Below are positions 7,044 through 14,770 of a DNA stretch of 35,424 nt, piece by piece. A model generated the notes under the pieces. The model was not told where the DNA came from. It made no database searches and was given only the letters and a program-made list of their open reading frames with translations. Numbering within the stretch: position 1 is the stretch's first letter; the number at the start of each line of letters is the position of its first letter. This stretch comes from a virus. The position numbers and the translations under genes are program-made. The stretch lies in IMG/VR virus record IMGVR_UViG_3300042924_002579, positions 1 through 35,424 of that record; one strand, written 5' to 3'.

Positions 7044-7720
7044 GCGAGTCCACAGCATTGACCACGACTGGAGGCAGCGTGTTCTCCGGCATTCAGGCCT
7101 TCGAGGATGCACAGCGCATCGCGAAAGCGCTGGCCAGCAGCACGCTGATCCCGCCGCAGTTCCAAGGGCAGCAGGGGTTTGCGAACTGCTTGGTGGCGCT
7201 TGAGATCGCCGGCCGGATGCGGATGAGCCCGTTCCAGGTGATGCAGAACCTGCACATCATCCACGGCCGCCCGAGCTGGAGCAGTCAGTTCATCATCGGC
7301 CTGATCAACGGCTGCGGCCGCTTCAGCCCGCTGAAGTACGAAGTCACCGGCACCGGTGACGCGATGGCCTGCTTCTGCACGGCGACCGAGCTGGCGAGCG
7401 GTGCGGAGCTGAAAGGCCCGACTGTGACGATGGCGATGGCCAAGAAGGAAGGCTGGGCGACGAAGGCCGGCAGCAAGTGGCAGACCATGCCCGAGCTGAT
7501 GATCCGGTATCGCGCCGCTGCGTTCTGGGGTCGGCTGTTCATCCCTGAGCTGCTGGTCGGCATCCACACCGAGGAGGAGGTGGTGGACGTGGAGCCGGTG
7601 CGCGTGAGCGAGGCCGAGCCTGCACCAGCGAAGGCGCGGCTGGAAGATCTGAACGCGAAGCTGCGCGAGCCTGCGCCAGTGGTGATCACCAAGGAGGTGC
7701 CCGATGACGAAATCTTCTGA
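7040..7720 (+). CDS. recT: RecT-like single-strand annealing protein
   Basis: This 226-residue recombinase should coat single-stranded DNA made by the upstream nuclease and anneal it to homologous strands. The start at 7040 overlaps the stop of the membrane peptide. Recognisable RecT-family features include the N-terminal QRIAKALASSTLIPPQFQG segment, NCLVALEIAGRMRMSPFQVMQ near 55-75, WSSQFIIGLIN near 85-95, and the MPELMIRYRAAAFWGRL block near 155-170. The last residues are EVPDDEIF, an acidic tip with a terminal phenylalanine that looks like an SSB C-terminal tail. An excellent ribosome site (AAGGAGGT) for the next gene is embedded in the 3' end. Confidence 0.92.
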   Translation: MSESTALTTTGGSVFSGIQAFEDAQRIAKALASSTLIPPQFQGQQGFANCLVALEIAGRMRMSPFQVMQNLHIIHGRPSWSSQFIIGLINGCGRFSPLKYEVTGTGDAMACFCTATELASGAELKGPTVTMAMAKKEGWATKAGSKWQTMPELMIRYRAAAFWGRLFIPELLVGIHTEEEVVDVEPVRVSEAEPAPAKARLEDLNAKLREPAPVVITKEVPDDEIF

Positions 7721-7934
7721 TCAACCGGGCTACCTGCAGCCCCGTGAGCTGGCAGCCAGGTGGCGCGGTGTCGTCACGCTGAGCACGCTCGACAACTGGC
7801 GCAGCCAGAACCGCGGCCCGAGGTTCGTGAAGATCGGAGGCCGTGTCCTGTATCCCGTCGCTGAGGTGGAGGCCTACGAGGCTCGAAACCTGCGCGGGAT
7901 GCCCAACCACCCACCTACTCAACCGAGACCATGA
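7704..7934 (+). CDS. Small helix-turn-helix protein (HTH_17 / excisionase-like)
   Basis: This 76-residue protein has a strong AAGGAGGT ribosome site inside the end of recT. The layout YLQPRELAARWRGVVTLSTLDNWRSQNRGPRFVKIGGRVLYPVAEVEAYE is that of MerR-like HTH_17 or AlpA/excisionase proteins: a helix-turn-helix, then a wing containing the 'GP.fvkigg.v.Y....v..y' pattern. It could be the excisionase acting on attP about 5 kb away, or a regulator of the recombination operon. Position alone does not decide. The stop overlaps the next start (ATGA). Confidence 0.82.
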   Translation: MTKSSDQPGYLQPRELAARWRGVVTLSTLDNWRSQNRGPRFVKIGGRVLYPVAEVEAYEARNLRGMPNHPPTQPRP

Positions 7935-12352: not shown

Positions 12353-12598
12353 ATGCTTCAGACTCTCGATCAGATGGGCGAGACCCTCACCGTTGGCCAG
12401 AAGGTCTGGGTGGACATGCCCCACATGGCCGACTGGTTCCCCGGTGCGGTGATGTTTGCCGAGGTGGTAGAAGGCCACCGCGATCCCCAGCCCGGCATGG
12501 TGTGGGTGCGCCAGCTGCCGACCGCAGCGCTCCCCTTCCCTGGCGAAGAAGGCGGTTGGGTCTCCGAGCAGCACGCCAGCCGCTGCCTAGGGCGCTGA
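12353..12598 (+). CDS. 81-residue hypothetical protein under promoter copy 2
   Basis: The ATG at 12353 follows GGCGGAGGAC, a strong ribosome site. The product has a beta-rich, SH3-like look: LTVGQKVWVDMPHMADWFPGAVMFAEVVEG, PGMVWVRQLP and GGWVSEQHASRCL. Small barrel proteins of this type in phages often bind DNA or partner proteins. No family is assigned. A 12-aa upstream extension would cross the promoter element and is rejected. Confidence 0.65.
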   Translation: MLQTLDQMGETLTVGQKVWVDMPHMADWFPGAVMFAEVVEGHRDPQPGMVWVRQLPTAALPFPGEEGGWVSEQHASRCLGR

Positions 12599-12640
12599 GC
12601 CCTGACCAGGCCGCTCCGGCGGCCCTCCTACTCTCCACCC

Positions 12641-12829
12641 ATGCAATACATCCTCCGCATCGGCCCGTGGCACGTCGGGCCGTTCACCACCCACCAAGGC
12701 GCGCAGCACTGGGCAGAGCGCCACGGGTGCGACGACTACACGATGATCCCGCTTGATGACCCTGCCGAAGCGCCGATCAGGATCCACCGGCTGCGCATGG
12801 CAACGCTGGCGCATCCGCTGCGCGAATAG
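12641..12829 (+). CDS. 62-residue hypothetical protein next to attP
   Basis: The product begins MQYILRIGPWHVGPFTTHQGA with an alternating hydrophobic strand followed by a helix (QHWAERHGC) and a C-terminal part IRIHRLRMATLAHPLRE. No family is recognised. The stop codon TAG at 12827-12829 lies inside the left arm-type repeat of attP, so the gene ends exactly at the attachment region. A GGCGGCCC stretch lies upstream rather than a textbook ribosome site. Confidence 0.5.
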   Translation: MQYILRIGPWHVGPFTTHQGAQHWAERHGCDDYTMIPLDDPAEAPIRIHRLRMATLAHPLRE

Positions 12830-13087
12830 TGCGCGAACGGGCTCGGCGGCGCCTCGAGCGGCCGATCGAGCCTGCCGGTAAGTCTTTGATTTGCTTGGAG
12901 ATTTTGGTGCCCAGGGGCGGAATCGAACCACCGACACTGCGATTTTCAGTGGTCCCCAGAGGGTTCACGGCGGTTCACGCGCGTTCACTAAACCTCTGAT
13001 TCAGCATCGCTTTCCGCCTTGACGGGTTCACGCCCGTTCGCGCAAGATCTGCCCCGTTCGCGCAAATCTGCGCGAATAGTGCGCGAA
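12818..13087. other. attP: attP region with arm-type integrase sites
   Basis: A perfect 20-bp direct repeat, CTGCGCGAATAGTGCGCGAA, stands at 12818-12837 and 13068-13087, on either side of the tRNA-derived core. Each copy holds two TGCGCGAA octamers. Two inverted octamers (TTCGCGCA) lie at 13037 and 13057, giving six in total. TTCACG repeats with 10-bp spacing follow the core (about 12965-12990) and recur at 13027. This is the layout of a tyrosine-recombinase attP with core and arm sites. The right arm abuts the integrase start, so integrase binding could repress its own gene. Confidence 0.72.
12905..12950 (-). other. tRNA-Phe 3' half (attachment core)
   Basis: Read on the minus strand, the 46 nt run from the anticodon loop (ACTGAAAATC, GAA anticodon of Phe) through the variable loop, a T-arm with the loop TTCGATT, the acceptor strand CCTGGGC, and ACCA. 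The 5' half is absent: upstream sequence cannot pair with the anticodon stem, and no D-arm is present. Phages that insert into tRNA genes carry such 3' fragments so that the gene is restored on integration. The break at the anticodon loop marks the probable crossover region. Confidence 0.85.
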
Positions 13088-13098
13088 TGGAGTGGGGC

Positions 13099-14214
13099 AT
13101 GGAGAAGGAGTGGAAGGCCGATCGGAAGGTGCCCGGCCTAGGGCTGATGGTGCTGCCATCAGGGGTCAGTACCTACTACCTGCGCTATCGCGAACCGAGC
13201 GGCAAACAGCAGACGCACAAGATCGGCCGGGCTGGCGTGATCAACCTCACCACCGCCCGCGAGGAGGCGCTCAAGCTGCTCGGCGATGTCGCCCGCGGCC
13301 AGGCGCCCACCACTGCACGCCAGCAGCTCAGGCGCAGCCCGACCATGCAGCAGCTGTTTGAGCGGCTCGATGCCGAGCACTATCCGAAGCTGCGGCCATC
13401 CACAGCCACCGGCTACCGCGTGCTGTGGAAGCGCCACATCTTGCCGCGGCTCGGCACCAGCAAGGCTGCAACGATCACCAGCGCCGACGTGCTCGAGCTC
13501 CTGCCCCAGCTACCGCGCATTCAGGCCAACCGATCGCTGGCGGTGCTGCGCAAGGCGTTCAACCTCGCGGAGCTGTGGGGCATCCGCCCGCAGGGCAGCA
13601 ACCCCTGCCACAAGGTCACCACCGGCAACCGCGAACGCAAGCGCCGCCGCTACCTCACCCGCGAGGAGCTCGATCGGCTGCTGGCTGCGCTCGACACCTA
13701 TGGCATCACCGGCGTGCGGTGGCGGTTCGCGCAGCTCATCCACCTGCTGCTGCTCACCGGCTGCCGCATCTCTGAGATCAAGGATGCGCGCTGGAGCTGG
13801 GTGCAGGGCAGCGTGCTGGTGGTGCCGGCCGAGTGCCACAAGACCGGCGCCGATGGCACTGATCGCCGCGTACAGCTGCCACCTGCTGCGCTCGACGTGC
13901 TGGCCGAGCTGCGCCGCCGATCGAACAGCGAGTGGATCATCGCTGGCGATGGCGATGGCCACCTGATCGGCTACTGGAGAATGTGGGCAGACCTGCTGGA
14001 GCAGGCCAAGATCGAGAACCTGCGGGTGCATGACCTGCGGCACAGCTTCGCGAGCTACGCGATCAGCCAGGCCAAGCTGTCGCTGCCGGTGGTCGGTGGC
14101 TTGCTCGGCCATGCCAGCCCGCAGACGACGCAGCGCTACGCGCACCTGATCGAGGAATCGGCCGCGGCTGCTGCTGCGCTGGTGGCGGCGCAAATAAAAG
14201 CCCCGGCTGGCTAG
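13099..14214 (+). CDS. int: Tyrosine integrase
   Basis: This site-specific recombinase of about 371 residues should integrate the phage into a host tRNA-Phe gene. Counting from an upstream ATG at 13087, the catalytic residues are R227 (TGCRISEI), K252 (CHKTGADG), H315 and R318 (HDLRHSFAS), H342 (GLLGHASPQTTQRYAH) and Y351. The N-terminal part resembles the DUF4102/P4 integrase arm-binding domain (LPSGVSTYYLRYREPSGK, KIGRAGVINLTTARE). I prefer the ATG at 13099 because GGAGTGGGG precedes it at the right distance, while the ATG at 13087 lies in an arm site with no ribosome site. Its stop sits in the terminator loop. Confidence 0.94.
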   Translation: MEKEWKADRKVPGLGLMVLPSGVSTYYLRYREPSGKQQTHKIGRAGVINLTTAREEALKLLGDVARGQAPTTARQQLRRSPTMQQLFERLDAEHYPKLRPSTATGYRVLWKRHILPRLGTSKAATITSADVLELLPQLPRIQANRSLAVLRKAFNLAELWGIRPQGSNPCHKVTTGNRERKRRRYLTREELDRLLAALDTYGITGVRWRFAQLIHLLLLTGCRISEIKDARWSWVQGSVLVVPAECHKTGADGTDRRVQLPPAALDVLAELRRRSNSEWIIAGDGDGHLIGYWRMWADLLEQAKIENLRVHDLRHSFASYAISQAKLSLPVVGGLLGHASPQTTQRYAHLIEESAAAAAALVAAQIKAPAG

Positions 14215-14251: not shown

Positions 14252-14770
14252 TCAGGCTAGCCCTTGCTGGCTGTACCTGCCATGGCGGTAGTTGTGGTGA
14301 TCAGAGCCTGAAGGAAAACGGTTGCGCTCCACTGCCTGCCGAACGTTCTCGACTTGATCGCCCCATGCCAAGTTGCTGATGCGGTTGTTGGTGGCATCGT
14401 CGTCAAGGTGGAGCACTAAAGGAGCGTTGTCGGGGTTGGGCAGAAACGCCTCTGCCACCAACCTTGCAACGTTCATGGTGTGCTCTCGGTTTTCCTTCCA
14501 TAGAGCGACCTGTTTTCGCTTGTAGGCGCCTGCTGCTGGCCTGTTGGTTTTCTGAAACAGCACGCGGCCGCGCATGGTGCGCTGCTTCAGAGTTGGGTGC
14601 CCTTGAAGTGGCACGACACGATCGAGGCTTCTCACGCGGCCTTGATCTGAGACTTCGTAGAGCCCTTCAAAGCCGACGACAGGCGCCCAGCGTTCAGCGC
14701 CGTAAGATTCGCACATCACTGGTAAGGCAGTGGTCAGGAGCTGGGCGTTGACGCGCCGCAGCTCCCACAT
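14252..14770 (-). CDS. HNH homing endonuclease with NUMOD4 domain
   Basis: This 172-residue protein has a NUMOD4 motif near residues 27-50 (RWAPVVGFEGLYEVSDQGRV, RSLDR), typical of DNA-binding in homing enzymes. An HNH domain follows, VLHLDDDATNNRISNLAWGDQVENV, near 118-143 with the catalytic histidine in 'LHLDDD' and asparagines further on. It ends with a basic, glycine- and histidine-rich tail. It lies last in the late operon, right after the deaminase-like gene. It is free-standing rather than in an intron, and is probably a mobile element that spreads between related phages. The start overlaps the previous stop region closely. Confidence 0.88.
   Translation of the reverse strand: MWELRRVNAQLLTTALPVMCESYGAERWAPVVGFEGLYEVSDQGRVRSLDRVVPLQGHPTLKQRTMRGRVLFQKTNRPAAGAYKRKQVALWKENREHTMNVARLVAEAFLPNPDNAPLVLHLDDDATNNRISNLAWGDQVENVRQAVERNRFPSGSDHHNYRHGRYSQQGLA

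Follow-up and report, generated by a model that had tools for sequence, protein, structure and literature searches.

The analysed stretch of DNA (the window, 35,424 bp) is a virus record in which a tyrosine integrase gene was located on the plus strand at 13099-14214, within an ORF opening at 13087. The arm-binding, core-binding and catalytic domains of the integrase (PF13356, PF14659 and PF00589) all scored above the cut-offs, and the protein matched PHROG 1. A gene for an HNH endonuclease with a NUMOD4 motif followed directly downstream (14252-14770, minus strand). The primase of the virus shared 60% identity with its counterpart in Synechococcus phage S-H1 and the lysozyme region showed 70% DNA identity to Synechococcus phage S-CBS3; therefore, a picocyanobacterial host was considered likely. 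The capsid was nearer to those of Roseobacter phages, with 35% identity.

Six copies of the octamer TGCGCGAA (inverted, TTCGCGCA) were packed into the 269 bp at 12819-13087, all of them at the positions given in the original prediction. Two direct copies formed a P arm at 12819-12837 (P1, 12819-12826; P2, 12830-12837) and two more a P' arm at 13069-13087 (13069-13076 and 13080-13087), all on the plus strand and with the members of each pair 11 bp apart. Both pairs were contained in a core-flanking repeat of 23 nt with 96% identity, in which the predicted perfect 20-bp repeat was recovered as at least 20 nt without mismatch. The inverted copies were found at 13037-13044 and 13057-13064, the latter being annotated on the minus strand. 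Just two further octamers occurred in the whole window outside this region. Chance occurrence was estimated from 300 simulated windows of the same third-order Markov composition, which contained 1.7 octamers per window on average and two per 270 bp at most. The octamers are most likely the arm-type sites of the integrase.

Between the two arms, a segment at 12905-12952 (minus strand) corresponded to the 3' half of a tRNA-Phe with the anticodon GAA, from the CCA end to the anticodon loop. The same 45-bp sequence was found without any mismatch in whole tRNA-Phe(GAA) genes of other contigs. The Rfam search of 12500-13500 gave no match. Since this core represents the 3' half of tRNA-Phe(GAA), the region 12819-13087 was assigned as the attP of a cyanophage tyrosine integrase, through which a virus of picocyanobacteria would insert into the tRNA-Phe gene of its host.

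To follow the region among relatives, 55 non-redundant attP-integrase loci including that of the window were collected by two scans of viral contigs. The octamers, which might have been lacking in related phages, were present there: each of the four terminal positions held the exact sequence in 40-46 loci out of 54 (P1, 45; P2, 40; 13069, 46; 13080, 42), and 200 of 216 terminal octamers fitted TGNGNNAA. Octamer positions were assigned manually in eight divergent loci (L288-L292, L294, L296 and L297). The inverted octamer at 13037 was exact in 41 of 54 loci, and the one at 13057 varied among the relatives, being exact in 30 of 54. In five near relatives the octamers were 95-100% conserved (those of the P arm, 100%), whereas the P spacer was only 48-66% identical. 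The most conserved columns between the core and the gene were three units of a TTCAC array, a TAA-N4-YTGATT element at -80, bases of a promoter-like element, TTCGCGCA at -32 and the octamers. The relatives gave strong support to the prediction of an attP with a two-arm design.

The distance between P1 and P'1 in 54 loci fell into six levels of 207, 217, 228, 239.5, 250 and 261 bp with nothing between them. Each level was tight to 1-2 bp and the fitted step was 10.9 bp, about one helical turn; when the hand-placed loci were left out, four levels were retained and the phasing was still significant (p 0.003). The tRNA anticodon in the core stood 126-129 bp from P'1 in 44 of 45 loci, irrespective of which of four tRNA cores was present, the exception (L289) having been mis-placed by the script. 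The insertions and deletions occurred mostly in the P spacer, with P2 lying 112, 101, 91 or 70 bp from the core. Spacing by whole turns would be expected if the arms, to join within a single complex, must always present the same face of the helix. It could be argued that the octamers serve a phage repressor as operators and have no tie to recombination, as they surround the start of the integrase gene. However, the pairs flank a tRNA core at mutual distances quantised in helical turns, and such a role was judged very improbable.

The cores of the relatives were derived from tRNA-Phe, tRNA-Met, tRNA-Lys or tRNA-Thr, and the class of the core tracked only the core-binding domain of the integrase. 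Four changes of core class were needed on the tree of this domain, compared with eight on the tree of the arm domain and ten on that of the catalytic domain. In L008, and also in L228, the catalytic domain was 99% identical to that of the window, the core-binding domain was only 46% identical, and the core was of tRNA-Met. L278 carried a core-binding domain of the Met type and a Met core, yet its arm domain shared 97% identity with that of L253, whose core is of tRNA-Lys. The domain trees and these chimeras confirmed the assignment of the core and indicated that the core and the core-binding domain move together. It can be proposed, with about even chances of being right, that attP and the integrase of this cyanophage family constitute exchangeable modules, in which the arms, the array and the helical spacing stay fixed, the tRNA core and the core-binding domain are swapped jointly so that the insertion gene changes in one step, and the arm spacing shifts by whole turns only. 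If true, the whole-turn spacing of the arms would be a natural counterpart of the classical phasing experiment.

Several further features of the cores and integrases were observed. The integrase at L008:6001-7140 was a natural chimera, in which the arm and catalytic domains resembled those of the window and enclosed a foreign core-binding domain. In attPs with a Met core (L008, L009, L010 and others), a hairpin AAGCCCGCTAAGTCATTGACCTAGCGGGC followed the tRNA 3' end and resembled a terminator supplied together with the tRNA half. The core tRNA was reversed in orientation in L280, L284, L288 and L297, with anticodons read as Thr, Gly and Arg, and the core of L290-L296 started with GGTTCTTCGCC and was not a recognised tRNA.

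Two sites resembling the binding motif of IHF flanked the core. The P-side site, TAAGTCTTTGATT (12879-12891, plus strand), matched YAANNNNTTGATW at 9 of 9 positions, and its offset ranked second in score among 33 non-redundant attPs, at P'1-190 (or -169), corresponding to P1+60, or to P1+38 in short forms. The P'-side site, TAAACCTCTGATT (12989-13001, plus strand), matched at 8 of 9 positions, coincided with conserved columns and occupied the highest-scoring offset (P'1-80). By their sequence and their fixed offsets on either side of the core, both qualify as putative accessory bend sites. With the IHF-alpha model, one of 14 controls scored above the cut-off, which we take to be that of E. coli, and the Synechococcus elongatus control scored below it; hence, the bending protein would presumably be HU-like. 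No IHF-alpha gene was found in 13 phage records.

A row of TTCACG, TTCACG and TTCACT units, starting at 12964, 12974 and 12984 (12964-12989, plus strand), was situated between the core and the P' arm. It was the sole YTCAC triplet at 10-bp steps in the window, none appeared in the 300 simulations, and its units fell on conserved columns at -105, -95 and -85 relative to P'1. The predicted repetition of TTCACG every 10 bp beside the core was therefore real and unique in the window, while a second in-phase pair, TTCACG at 13027 and TTCGCG at 13037 (63 and 73 bp from the array start), had been described only in part. This pair, formed by TTCACG and the inverted octamer TTCGCGCA, spans 13027-13044 on the plus strand. 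When an array was sought at the promoter of the candidate excisionase itself, no other pair of YTCAC motifs at 10 bp was detected in the window.

The candidate excisionase (recombination directionality factor, RDF) was an HTH_17-like protein of 76 amino acids encoded at 7704-7934 on the plus strand. It matched the PHROG 66 'excisionase' family with an E value of 1.7e-6 and scored slightly under the Pfam cut-off for HTH_17, which places it among small winged-helix (wHTH) proteins of the Xis/AlpA type. Searches of the same protein gave no NCBIfam match and no convincing PDB sequence match. The protein was detected with 66-97% identity in 35 of the 52 records of relatives, and one additional match was weak (37%).

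We proposed that the TTCAC array is probably bound by this wHTH excisionase. Direct repeats at 10 bp would suit a wHTH filament, since about one RdfS molecule per 10 bp is bound in ICEMlSymR7A (PMC11963761). Another reading takes all phased sites, TTCAC units included, as integrase arm-type sites of varied strength, the array acting like P'1-P'2-P'3 of phage lambda and the excisionase binding elsewhere. TTCACG is one transition away from the octamer core TTCGCG, so the integrase could bind both; the sites at 13027 and 13037 mix both types in a single 10-bp register; and the Int N-domains on the lambda P' sites line up almost linearly (PMC4880445). However, the array consists of direct repeats at 10 bp and the octamers are 11 bp apart, and the TTCAC units were unchanged where the terminal octamers differed (TGCGCCAA in L289, TGTGATAA/TGGGATAA in L288 and TGTGCAAA in L290-L294). 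In L289, L292 and L297 the octamers were altered, but the excisionase, at 66-86% identity, and the array units were kept. As its sequence holds where the octamers change, the array probably represents another type of site, and its use by the integrase was regarded as unlikely. The inverted octamer at 13037 was ambiguous in this respect: it stayed TTCGCGCA in two loci with altered P' octamers (L288 and L297), but an inverted copy tracked the octamer change in L289. In Mantel tests, the sequence distances of the array were uncorrelated with those of the excisionase and also with those of the arm domain, and the promoter segment correlated with both.

The integrase start had been predicted to lie inside an arm site. 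The first ATG (13087) did share one base with the last octamer, but a better start was found 12 bp downstream at 13099, corresponding to Met5 of the ORF. This position was nearly invariant and was preceded by a GGAG Shine-Dalgarno sequence (13089-13092), which begins one base past the last octamer. In relatives of the L017 type, the start ATG does abut the octamer. A leader RNA hairpin TTCGCGCA-AATC-TGCGCGAA was considered as a translation switch and rejected, as its fold was no better than those of shuffled sequences (z -0.72). A scan for terminators gave no hit.

A putative integrase promoter was placed at 13019-13048 on the plus strand, with a -35-like TTGACG at 13019-13024 and a weak -10-like CAAGAT at 13043-13048. 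The TTCACG at 13027 and the TTCGCGCA at 13037 lie within its spacer, the latter overlapping the start of the -10-like element, and the other octamers lie in the leader; bound integrase, excisionase or both should therefore stop transcription of the integrase gene. Self-repression is thus plausible from the overlap of the sites with a conserved promoter-like element. It might alternatively be supposed that the overlap of sites and leader results from the packing of arm and gene alone, with the integrase gene transcribed mainly from elsewhere. Indeed, the scan of 12700-13300 gave no consensus sigma-70 promoter, and the -10-like element matched at only 3 of 6 positions. On the other hand, bases of both the -35- and the -10-like elements (T 13020, C 13023, A 13044 and T 13048) were among the conserved columns, and the same layout is repressive in KplE1 and ICEMlSymR7A (PMC2951348, PMC11963761). 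The absence of self-repression was accordingly held to be doubtful.

Taken together, the region 12819-13087 was interpreted, with a probability of about 0.8, as a complete lambda-type tyrosine integrase attP of a cyanophage directed at the 3' half of host tRNA-Phe, with octamers for the integrase arm domain, TTCAC units for the excisionase encoded at 7704, IHF-like bends and a shut-off of the integrase gene. The sites, the identity of the core, the conservation, the helical-turn spacing and the coupling between the core and the core-binding domain were observed in this analysis, and the assignment of proteins to sites, the bending and the repression are inferred. The core-binding and catalytic domains of the integrase subunits would grip the tRNA core, and their N-terminal arm-binding domain would bridge to the octamer pairs at both ends. 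The arms may be drawn together by bending of the DNA at the two IHF-like sites on either side of the core. The wHTH excisionase would most likely stack on the TTCAC units, one per turn, tipping the reaction to excision, and the integrase, the excisionase or both, bound to the promoter and leader sites, could shut off integrase transcription.

An attP of this kind is already known, and it is the comparative series that is unusually informative. The IntS/TorI system of KplE1 (CPS-53) in E. coli likewise has a core derived from a tRNA and a separate excisionase gene, and its int-side arm sites overlap the int promoter (PMC2951348), which is putative in the window. There, repression of intS by IntS and TorI via the att sites has been demonstrated experimentally, whereas autoregulation is a prediction here; KplE1 also differs in a TAAA-containing arm motif and in its tRNA, argW, and the two were likened by layout. 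ICEMlSymR7A has a 283-bp attP with five arm sites, an IntS that represses its own promoter (PintS), and a wHTH RDF, RdfS, on the int-proximal side (PMC11963761). Its arm consensus is TGKTGGTATC, and the RDF motif could not be defined there, in contrast to the phased TTCAC visible here. The attP of phage lambda resembles the proposed layout in having Int arm sites on two arms, bends of the IHF type next to the core, and Xis sites (PMC4880445), but it lacks a tRNA core, has the Xis sites on the P arm, and its int is not likewise transcribed outward from attP.

The tRNA-dependent lysogeny so far described for actinobacteriophages (PMC10865867) was matched by 11 relatives of the window (L251, L255, L257, L258, L259, L264, L274, L275, L277, L281 and L282). 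Their core comprised the anticodon stem-loop only, and a whole tRNA-Lys(TTT) or tRNA-Met gene adjoined the P arm on the same strand. By sequence, these relatives are predicted to represent tRNA-dependent lysogeny in cyanophages, and the host tRNA promoter might read into the phage tRNA copy after integration. The window itself differs, as its 48-bp core restores the 3' half of tRNA-Phe and no tRNA gene is carried along.

Prophages and attB sites were also sought in bacterial genomes. The best 80 of 554 bacterial relatives were at most 42% identical, belonged mainly to Alphaproteobacteria and included no cyanobacterium; neither among these nor among the viral loci was any attL, attR or attB seen. 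Since each of the 54 loci with sufficiently long upstream sequence had a P arm, the loci were regarded as free attP forms. Some of those 80 bacterial relatives carried their own octamer pairs at 11 bp, for example TGCTTCCA.

Lysogeny of picocyanobacteria is poorly understood and apparently rare (PMC6157547). Dozens of cyanophages with a readable attP make integration testable, as the tRNA that is targeted, the arm sites and a likely excisionase can be named. The swapped core-binding domains offer ready natural chimeras for studying the target choice of the integrase, and the spacing series tests the geometry of the intasome. Elsewhere in the window, at 956-1219, a cluster of AGAGAGAG was noticed at 1068-1114, together with five copies of CCGTTACA at 956-1201.
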